Positions 1 through 15,647 of a stretch of DNA of 34,269 nucleotides are shown here, one piece after another; position 1 is the stretch's first letter; every line of letters starts with the position of its first letter. The stretch is taken from positions 1 through 34,269 of IMG/VR virus record IMGVR_UViG_3300042691_006817, one strand, 5' to 3'. Below the pieces are notes generated by a model. The model did not search any database. It saw only the letters and a list, made by a program, of their open reading frames with translations, and was not told the DNA's origin. The translations under genes were made by a program, and so were the position numbers. This DNA comes from a virus.

Positions 1-69
1 GCGTTGTCCCTGAAGTCGTCCCCAAACTAACCGAAACCGTGGCTGAACCAATGTTAATCAGCGCAACGT
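1..69. repeat. Terminal direct repeat, left copy (circular assembly overlap)
   Basis: These 69 bases are identical to the last 69 bases of the window. The minus-strand gene that ends at 34034 continues in frame across this point to a start at 175, so the two ends join into a circle. A headful-packaging phage with a gp3-type small terminase would be circularly permuted, so the overlap is more likely an assembly overlap than a biological terminal repeat. Confidence 0.95.
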
Positions 70-175
70 AATTGTTTTCGACGTTGGTATTGGGGTTGAT
101 TTGCAGGGGGGTCGTGGCCGTTGCCGCGACAGTAATGCGGCTTGTCGGGCCGTTGGGTCTGAAATTAGGCAGCAT
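1..175 (-). CDS. Virion structural protein, N-terminal part (split by the window ends)
   Basis: The gene starts with ATG at 175, behind a strong ribosome binding site (AGGAAAGGGG at about 10 bases upstream). It runs off the left edge and continues at 34200 down to a TAA at 34034. Joined, it has 114 codons (113 aa). The protein is rich in Thr, Ser, Pro, Val and Asn with no cysteine, and looks like a beta-rich virion protein. It follows the coat and decoration genes after a terminator and precedes the large tail fibre gene, so a role in the head-tail or fibre region is inferred from position. I do not recognise a named family. Confidence 0.85.
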   Translation of the reverse strand, partial: MLPNFRPNGPTSRITVAATATTPLQINPNTNVENNYVALINIGSATVSVSLGTTSGTT

Positions 176-198
176 AAGTGTTCCCCTTTCCTTGCGAA

Positions 199-204
199 AT
201 TATA
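199..204 (-). promoter_or_regulatory. Consensus -10 box of a possible tail-operon promoter
   Basis: Read on the minus strand this is a perfect TATAAT, just after the terminator and 24 bases upstream of the ATG at 175. A transcript starting about 7 bases later would carry the AGGAAAGGGG ribosome binding site. The -35 region is poor at 16-18 bp spacing and lies in the terminator stem, so an activator or a weak promoter is possible. Confidence 0.4.
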
Positions 205-210
205 GGCTTC

Positions 211-245
211 AAAAGCGAAAAAGCCACCCCTTTTGGGGCGGCTTT
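211..245 (-). terminator. Intrinsic terminator after the head genes
   Basis: On the minus strand the sequence forms a stem of about 10 bp around an AAAA loop (arms at 221-230 and 235-244), followed by a U-rich run. One position is G-U in minus-strand RNA but would be A-C in plus-strand RNA, which supports leftward termination. It sits 25 bases after the stop of the decoration-like gene and separates head genes from the tail module. Confidence 0.8.
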
Positions 246-13270: not shown

Positions 13271-14048
13271 GGATCACCTCGTTGGTTTCGTCGATTGTTT
13301 TTTCCCAAAAGTTTTTCGGTTTAGGCGTGGCCATGCCCCTGGTCAGTTCGGCCATGTGTTCACGGGCGCGTTCGGATTCGGTTACTTTTTCGACAACCCA
13401 CTTAGATTTAAAACTGGCCCAGTTTCGCAAGCAACATTCTTTTATTGCGTCTTCAGTTGACCAACCAGCTTTTGCGGCTTCGTTGCAAAACAAACTCCAA
13501 GCTGTTTGGGTCAGTGGCGAATTTTTCTTGGCTCTAATGACAAGCCAGTCATTCCAAATTTGCTGGTCAATAAAATCAGGCCGCGTCACGACGGCGCTTT
13601 CCTTATTCCCCTTCCTTTTCCCTTCCCTTCCTTTCCCTTCCACTTGAGTATGCACAAGCGGCGTGAGTGACGCGTCATCCACGCGTGGCTCACGCGTGTA
13701 AATGGTAGATTCTTCAGGTGGTGGAATAATTGACTCTGATTCTCTATTGTTAATTACCTGGTGAATATTCCAAGACGGTATGCAACCATAATCCTTGCCA
13801 TCTTTTGAATATTTGACAATAAAACCACACGTCAACAACGCGTCAAGCACGCGTGAAAAGTCCAATTCATCATAGGGAAGAACGTCCAATTTCAGTGCGC
13901 GTGGCAGCCATTTAAAACGGCCTTCTCTGTCGCAAGCCGTCCATAAACCGGCAAACGAAATTCTTAAAGGAAGTTTGTATTTGACCTCAGCCTCGTACAA
14001 ACCCTCATGCCGAAAAAAATCAGGTTTTATTGTTCTAATTCTTGCCAT
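13245..14048 (-). CDS. Replication initiator, lambda O-like winged-helix protein
   Basis: The 267-aa protein begins MARIRTIKPDFFRHEGLYEA, and its N-terminal domain (about 1-110), with LPLRISFAGLWTACDREGRF, is the winged-helix type found in phage replication proteins. A charged linker follows (about 136-152, GKGREGKRKGNKE), then a helical C-terminal domain with WNDWLVIRAKKNSPLTQTAW. The gene contains two 11-bp-periodic ACGCGT arrays flanking an A+T-rich stretch, the layout of an origin inside an O gene. It overlaps the upstream HNH gene by 14 bases and the downstream P-like gene by 26. Confidence 0.8.
   Translation of the reverse strand: MARIRTIKPDFFRHEGLYEAEVKYKLPLRISFAGLWTACDREGRFKWLPRALKLDVLPYDELDFSRVLDALLTCGFIVKYSKDGKDYGCIPSWNIHQVINNRESESIIPPPEESTIYTREPRVDDASLTPLVHTQVEGKGREGKRKGNKESAVVTRPDFIDQQIWNDWLVIRAKKNSPLTQTAWSLFCNEAAKAGWSTEDAIKECCLRNWASFKSKWVVEKVTESERAREHMAELTRGMATPKPKNFWEKTIDETNEVIHVETKRLL
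13659..13702. repeat. Iteron array A: four 11-bp units, three perfect ACGCGT
   Basis: ACGCGT starts at 13670, 13681 and 13692, exactly 11 bases apart, with a degenerate unit (CGGCGT) at 13659. Eleven is not a multiple of three, so the units fall in all three reading frames and cannot come from a repeated peptide. Spacing of one helical turn places the sites on one face of the DNA. Confidence 0.8.
13827..13859. repeat. Iteron array B: three 11-bp units
   Basis: ACACGT at 13827, ACGCGT at 13838 and ACGCGT at 13849 are again 11 bases apart. Units share a GTCAA or GTGAA right flank. The array is separated from array A by about 125 bp of A+T-rich sequence. Confidence 0.75.
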
Positions 14049-15059: not shown

Positions 15060-15647
15060 ATGTCCAAGCAATATCTCTCCTGCGCTGACACTGCCAAACT
15101 GGTTCGTGCCGCGCTCAAAGAATCATTCCCAGGCGTCAAGTTCAGCGTCCGCAGCAGCGTGTACAGTGGCGGCGCCAGCATCAATGTGTCCTACACCGAC
15201 GGCCCGTCCTACGATCAGGTCAAAGGCATTGTCGGCGCGTTTGAAGGCAGCTACTTTGATGGTATGACCGATTACAAGGGCAGCAACTACGGCAGCCTAG
15301 ACGGTCAGGAAGTGCGGTTTGGCGCTGACTTTATTTTTGTCAACAGGCAAATTTCTGCGCCAATGTTGACCAGGGCCGCCAGCTTTGTTTTGAACTACTT
15401 TGGCCTGGACAATGAAGTGACCATCGACAGCGGCAACAAGTACAGCGGCGCGTACATCAAGTCGGTCAACAACCTGGCCGCCAGTGAAGCGCGGGGTTTT
15501 AGTGCTTACGAAATTCAGCGCAGAATTAATGAGGAAGCCAGCAAGTACAGCATGGACGACGCCGCAGAAAGCGCCACGCTCAAGCGGGTGGCGTTCCTGG
15601 GTGACGATGGATACGGTTACGGCGCCGTTGGCCGGATTGCAGCATAA
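15060..15647 (+). CDS. LPD29-domain protein
   Basis: The 195-aa product matches Large Polyvalent Protein Associated Domain 29 over about residues 5-75. It has YLSCADTAKLVRAALKESFP followed by VKFSVRSSVYSGGASINVSY, a TDGPSYDQVKGIVGAFEG segment and FDGMTD. The remainder (80-195) is less conserved and helical. LPD29 occurs alone or within polyvalent proteins of phages and conjugative elements, and its biochemical role is not known; counter-defence or replication have been considered in general for such domains. It has its own promoter (14989) and an AAAGGA ribosome binding site. Confidence 0.85.
   Translation: MSKQYLSCADTAKLVRAALKESFPGVKFSVRSSVYSGGASINVSYTDGPSYDQVKGIVGAFEGSYFDGMTDYKGSNYGSLDGQEVRFGADFIFVNRQISAPMLTRAASFVLNYFGLDNEVTIDSGNKYSGAYIKSVNNLAASEARGFSAYEIQRRINEEASKYSMDDAAESATLKRVAFLGDDGYGYGAVGRIAA

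Follow-up and report, generated by a model that had tools for sequence, protein, structure and literature searches.

Phased ACGCGT arrays inside a phage initiator gene as a very probable origin of replication

A viral contig of 34,269 nucleotides (IMG/VR virus record IMGVR_UViG_3300042691_006817, analyzed over its whole length and called the window below) carries two arrays of the hexamer ACGCGT, repeated every 11 bp, inside the gene of its own replication initiator. About a hundred other phages and prophages have kept this layout, which makes it very probable that the segment is the site where the initiator binds to start replication. As we read the sequences, it would be a phage origin embedded in the initiator's gene, with iterons one helical turn apart bound by the N-terminal domain (N-domain) in cooperative filaments, melting of an A+T-rich stretch, and recruitment of a helicase loader.

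Arrays, initiator and neighboring genes in the window

The total count of ACGCGT in the window is ordinary (11 seen, 11.8 expected); its arrangement is not. Three pairs lie exactly 11 bp apart, compared with none in 298 of 300 simulated windows and one in the other 2, and 5000 synonymous-codon shuffles of the initiator gene gave a mean of 0.008 such pairs and a maximum of 1. The coordinates reported in the preliminary description were verified, and the pattern is confirmed as real and far beyond chance. In gene orientation, array 1 reads ACGCGTgcttgACGCGTtgttgACGTGT and array 2 reads ACGCGTgagccACGCGTggatgACGCGT; alignment of the two 33-bp array blocks (13670-13702 and 13827-13859) gave 76% identity. 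The further degenerate unit proposed at 13659 has two mismatches in the window (CGGCGT), and most relatives have a one-mismatch fourth unit at that place.

Table 1. Positions of the arrays, the initiator and adjoining features in the window
Feature	Position	Strand	Description or basis
Array 1	13827..13854	(-)	Three units at 11 bp: ACGCGT 13849-13854, ACGCGT 13838-13843, one-mismatch ACACGT 13827-13832
Array 2	13670..13697	(-)	Exact units at 13692, 13681 and 13670; 11-bp spacing; degenerate fourth at 13659
A+T-rich stretch between arrays	13698..13826	no strand	129 bp, 35% GC; candidate unwinding element
Polypurine tract	13606..13641	(-)	GGGAA-like repeats on gene strand; 36 bp uninterrupted; directly after array 2
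Initiator gene, 267 aa	13245..14048	(-)	PHROG matches and AlphaFold2 model
N-terminal winged helix	residues about 10-95		AlphaFold2 model, confident
Disordered linker	residues about 112-155		AlphaFold2 model
Small helical C-domain	residues about 160-236		AlphaFold2 model
Predicted recognition-helix codons, residues 64-73	13830..13859	(-)	AlphaFold2 secondary structure; almost coincident with array 1
C-domain codons (O-like)	13341..13571	(-)	Common to initiators with other N-domains; no clear fold match
Next gene, 128 aa	12884..13270	(-)	Overlaps initiator gene end; phrog_109 E 0.042 (weak) and position

The gene had been described as O-like, and PHROG searches bear out its identity as an initiator. 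The best of several matches to replication initiation families was phrog_16167 (E 2e-41, residues 1-123), and phrog_678, “replication initiation O-like,” matched the C-domain only (E 7e-15, residues 117-249); the N-domain falls in replication-initiation PHROGs other than phrog_678. Pfam and NCBIfam gave no match for the 267-aa protein, and a search by sequence found no solved structure for it. In the AlphaFold2 model, the stretch coding for the disordered linker contains array 2 and the purine tract, and the codons of the N-domain helix of residues 64-73, which is predicted to read DNA, nearly coincide with array 1. The top Foldseek match of the winged-helix model was the plasmid initiator 4pt7 (weak, E 0.04), and in a second fold comparison the Rep-DNA complex 5kbj had a middling Z of about 6; the scores of 4pt7, 4pql, and 5kbj, which we take to be RepA N-domain structures, are within the range of unrelated winged helices. 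TubR (3m8e) was also among the Foldseek matches, weakly. For the C-domain, a DnaD-like or DnaT-like fold was considered and set aside, as neither matched clearly and DnaD entries appeared at noise level only.

Most fold neighbors of the winged-helix model are regulators, and many small winged-helix proteins are repressors. An alternative hypothesis is that the arrays are operators, at which the initiator or another phage regulator represses or paces transcription of the replication genes, and that the origin lies elsewhere; intragenic sites could act as a roadblock. We consider this improbable. The arrays are 195-400 bp inside the initiator coding sequence, away from the promoter, they lie around an A+T-rich stretch as in known origins, and they follow the initiator's own N-domain (see below). 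Lambda-type origins, which sit in the middle of the O gene (PMC7466680), provide a precedent for an origin at this location.

The stretch between the arrays is A+T rich, as previously described, with 35% GC compared with 46% for the gene. Of 119 relatives with both arrays, 116 had lower GC between the arrays than in the remainder of the gene; compared with synonymous shuffles, inter-array GC was only slightly lower (57 of 81 genes). The low GC follows in part, and indeed to a large extent, from the protein sequence. The polypurine/polypyrimidine tract beside the arrays is real but shorter than the 50 bp first given (36 uninterrupted bases, 44 with one interruption), and in 60 of 101 array-bearing genes it was longer than in all 50 synonymous shuffles. 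Most array-bearing genes, and some genes with other motifs, keep tracts of the GGGAA type more strictly than their codons require; these tracts could be unwinding, triplex, or G4-prone elements. The next gene had been labeled P-like; its weak phrog_109 match and its position suggest that it is possibly a helicase loader of this kind. GC skew, a check that the preliminary description had proposed, was uninformative, with no turning point at the arrays and no origin signal.

The window also carries ERF, YqaJ, and NinB phage genes. Beside the ERF and YqaJ recombination genes we found a 195-aa LPD29-domain protein (PF18847, E 8e-25) on the plus strand at 15060-15647. Three genes of the HNH endonuclease type occur in the 34-kb contig (14035-14682, 10673-11050, and 18284-18775), one of which lies directly upstream of the initiator gene and overlaps its start.

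Relatives of the initiator and exchange of N-domains

Searches with the N-domain in viral contigs and bacterial genomes, together with a few GenBank phages, yielded 201 distinct genes, whose loci are best hits, mutually related, and mostly metagenomic. Removal of redundancy left 162 initiator genes, including a few taken for their C-domain. The initiator protein used as a direct query had no match in bacterial genomes, but the N-domain alignment did find relatives; no GenBank phages with DNA similar to the window were found.

At least one exact 11-bp ACGCGT pair was present in 101 of the 162 nonredundant genes. Among the first 74 relatives, pairs up to 60 bp apart fell at lags of 11 (195), 22 (81), 33 (20), and 44 (7), with few scattered others, and synonymous shuffles of these 74 genes averaged 1.35 pairs at lag 11. 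Initiator genes held 275 lag-11 pairs in 128 kb, compared with 4 in 706 kb of flanking DNA, and those four were confined to two loci (L161 and L175). Downstream of the initiator gene, at a distance of about 180 bp and within the next gene, both loci have an extra array of three 11-bp-spaced units (4899-4945 in L161); they belong to a branch of Curvibacter prophages without array 1.

Where the N-domain is at least 60% identical to that of the window, array 1 is present in 76 and array 2 in 77 of 93 genes (window counted). In relatives generally, array 1 occupies the same codons as in the window, and array 2, of 2-7 units, lies in the linker. At 30-49% identity, array 2 alone persists, in 15 of 50 genes. 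Both arrays are present in the isolate phage VvAW1 and array 2 in Vibrio phage 1.176.O; in ct4oC223, seven units form a single chain. Relatives that kept the protein while lacking the arrays had been named as the finding that would refute the probable origin; such genes exist, but as a minority. Among those with an N-domain as in the window, array 1 is missing from L048 and L086, both arrays are missing from L060, L068, L069, L070, L093, L127, and L130, and L104 retains array 1 without an ACGCGT array 2. Several of the exceptions carry another phased motif, GTGCATGCAC, at the same place. In L060, L068, L069, L070, L093, and L104, the linker (gene position about 340-380) has GTGCATGCAC / GCACGTGCAT repeats of 10-bp period in place of ACGCGT; L104 combines them with ACGCGT array 1. 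Searches of the open-access literature turned up no report of ACGCGT repeats or 11-bp arrays within initiator genes of this kind, and an earlier account in a subscription journal is possible.

The ACGCGT motif tracks the N-domain, not the C-domain. The arrays occur with 29 C-domain clusters (defined by single-linkage BLAST, which may miss distant relatedness), always under the N-domain family of the window. In the window's own C-domain cluster, 16 of 17 genes with this N-domain had an array, but none of the 8 genes with another N-domain did (p = 8e-6, for genes that are not independent). The other N-domains attached to the C-domain shared with the window, DUF1376 and others, come with short linker repeats of other sequence, in many cases also 11 bp apart. 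These include GTTSAAC (five copies in L011), GGGTACATGAT (L017), GATATC (three copies in L029), and ATAGCC (L027). Other branches of the window's N-domain family have either GGGAAGCA in four to five copies (L152, L169, and L182) or repeats that resemble GTGCATGCAC and recur every 10 bp.

Phased repeats are not restricted to the ACGCGT motif. In genes without ACGCGT pairs, 7-mer pairs exceeded those in synonymous shuffles at lag 11 (113 versus 9.3), lag 22 (90 versus 7.3), lag 10 (48 versus 6.4), and lag 21 (104 versus 20.7). Lag 14 was also in excess, from a different repeat, and is probably accounted for by CCTGATTC. That repeat, with 7- and 14-bp spacing, lies between the linker and the C-domain in L120 (1684-1715), L122, and L123, the initiator genes of HK639, Vibrio 1.232, and yong1. 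We are evenly divided on a broader proposal, in which tailed phages with initiators of several unrelated N-domain families would generally build their origins from short sites phased at one turn (11 bp, sometimes 10 bp) in linker-coding DNA. On this view each N-domain would have its own motif at a constant pitch, implying that all of them bind by forming filaments with one binding unit per turn, and in one branch the sites would fall within codons of the very helix predicted to recognize them.

Array-bearing prophages were detected in Alpha-, Beta-, and Gammaproteobacteria, in Acidobacteria, and in one Planctomycetota MAG. The motif is a palindrome of the type that host proteins read, and it might be bound, for packaging, recombination, or regulation, by a factor of the host such as a nucleoid protein or one linked to methylation. 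This explanation seems very unlikely to us, since the spread over several phyla and the absence of the motif from phages that share the C-domain but have another N-domain point to a phage protein.

Codon choice at array positions

The codons of array 1 are nearly frozen only where ACGCGT demands it and are free between units. Serine 65 is encoded by TCA in 76/77 cases (99%), compared with 19% elsewhere in the same genes. Comparable biases were found for R66 (CGC, 80/83 versus 29% elsewhere), D69 (GAC, 81/87 versus 56%), A70 (GCG, 88/95 or 93% versus 29%), T73 (ACG, 74/75 or 99% versus 28%), and R74 (CGT, 64/67 or 96% versus 15%). The spacer codon L68 varies freely (CTT 43, CTC 42). The unit consensus across relatives is SACGCGTS followed by a 3-bp spacer, and alignment of homologs, the check that the preliminary description had suggested, showed that the ACGCGT spacing is more conserved than the codons.

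The reading frame of array 2 relative to that of array 1 differs among genes (distances of 157 and 158 and of 169 and 170). The distances between the arrays cluster at 157/158, 169/170, and 181/182, with a resultant length of 0.8 near a period of 11.5-12 and 0.55 at 10.5; we do not claim helical phasing between the two arrays, because the coding frame admits only indels divisible by 3 and the genes share ancestry. Avoidance of stray sites was also considered: ACGCGT is depleted in phages (0.48 of expectation in viral contigs), but several other palindromes are likewise depleted, and the effect is therefore not specific.

That the repeats are a by-product of a conserved or repetitive peptide or of codon bias is scarcely credible: array 1 does encode a conserved helix (SRVLDAL), but a spacing of 11 bp does not fit whole codons, synonymous shuffles erase the pattern, the extreme codon choice is confined to array positions, and the frame of array 2 relative to array 1 is not constant. 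The earlier argument that an 11-bp spacing could not come from a repeated peptide was sound.

Proposed mechanism and comparison with known origins

We postulate that the winged-helix N-domain recognizes the short palindrome SACGCGTS. Given the exact 11-bp spacing of the units, neighboring protomers or dimers would lie on nearly one face of the helix, in contact and stacked, and would build a short cooperative nucleoprotein filament on each array. Two such filaments could strain open the intervening A+T-rich stretch. The C-domain, which is exchangeable and hangs on the disordered linker, would recruit the helicase loader (possibly the product of the next gene) and the helicase. Binding, cooperativity, melting, and loader recruitment are steps that we infer. 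A point against the scheme is that palindromes of 6-8 bp at 11-bp intervals leave little room for winged-helix dimers of the ordinary kind, a steric problem that an intertwined dimer like that of TubR would ease. TubR binds tubC as a winged-helix dimer with both recognition helices in the major groove and forms a filament on short repeats (PMC5016525). TubR-tubC is a partition system, not a replication system, and its likeness to the arrays is a mechanistic analogy only, perhaps useful as a structural model. In iteron plasmids, displacement by half a turn abolishes iteron cooperativity (PMC4980987).

The best reading of the comparisons is that the arrays would work like a lambda-type intragenic origin. 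As in lambda and the Stx phages, the repeats lie in the linker-coding middle of the initiator gene, next to an A+T-rich region; the gene that follows, which in lambda is of the loader type, may be so here. Both arrays are intragenic, array 1 in N-domain codons and array 2 in the linker-coding part, and the relationship to O runs through the C-domain (phrog_678). Iteron length, spacing, and the one-cluster layout differ. In the lambda O gene, which we compared directly, four 18-bp iterons about 20-24 bp apart are grouped together to one side of the A+T-rich tract; here, palindromes of 6-8 bp recur at 11-bp intervals and form a cluster on either side, one of the two in predicted recognition-helix codons. 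The earlier suggestion of lambda-like logic with an unlike core and one-turn phasing agrees with this comparison.

Other replicons share single features of the layout. Origins of PICI/SaPI elements always have two sets of short iterons around an A+T-rich region, a layout described as unique to PICI islands (PMC6092414), and the window has the same flanking arrangement. PICI origins, however, lie in an island, 3' of the pri-rep module with its rep gene, whereas the arrays here are inside the initiator gene of a window with phage genes. RepA_N plasmid replicons (pAD1 group) have iterons inside the rep coding sequence (PMC9743546), and pAM373 repA, like the initiator here, has three repeats between its domains; those are about 54 bp long and in codon phase, whereas the repeats here are 11 bp and out of codon phase. 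The Pfam RepA_N model did not match the window initiator or the members of our alignment A1 that have its N-domain. In the RepA of Vibrio PLE, N-domain and origin are exchanged jointly while the C-domain stays, a covariation proven experimentally (PMC8263062). The initiators here resemble it in that a predicted DNA-binding N-domain and repeats are exchanged together and the C-domain is kept, but the PLE origin is intergenic, with three semi-palindromic iterons of roughly 30 bp, in contrast to intragenic 11-bp arrays.

If the origin reading is true, the origin of a very large set of uncharacterized phages and prophages would be locatable by one simple pattern, which here covers over a hundred genes from hosts of several phyla. 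The site of each initiator N-domain would be readable from its own gene, and natural domain swaps would offer a testable protein-DNA specificity code. The two-array layout, described as restricted to PICIs, would be much wider. A recognition helix with its own codons as binding site would place overlapping protein and DNA constraints on the same stretch of the gene.
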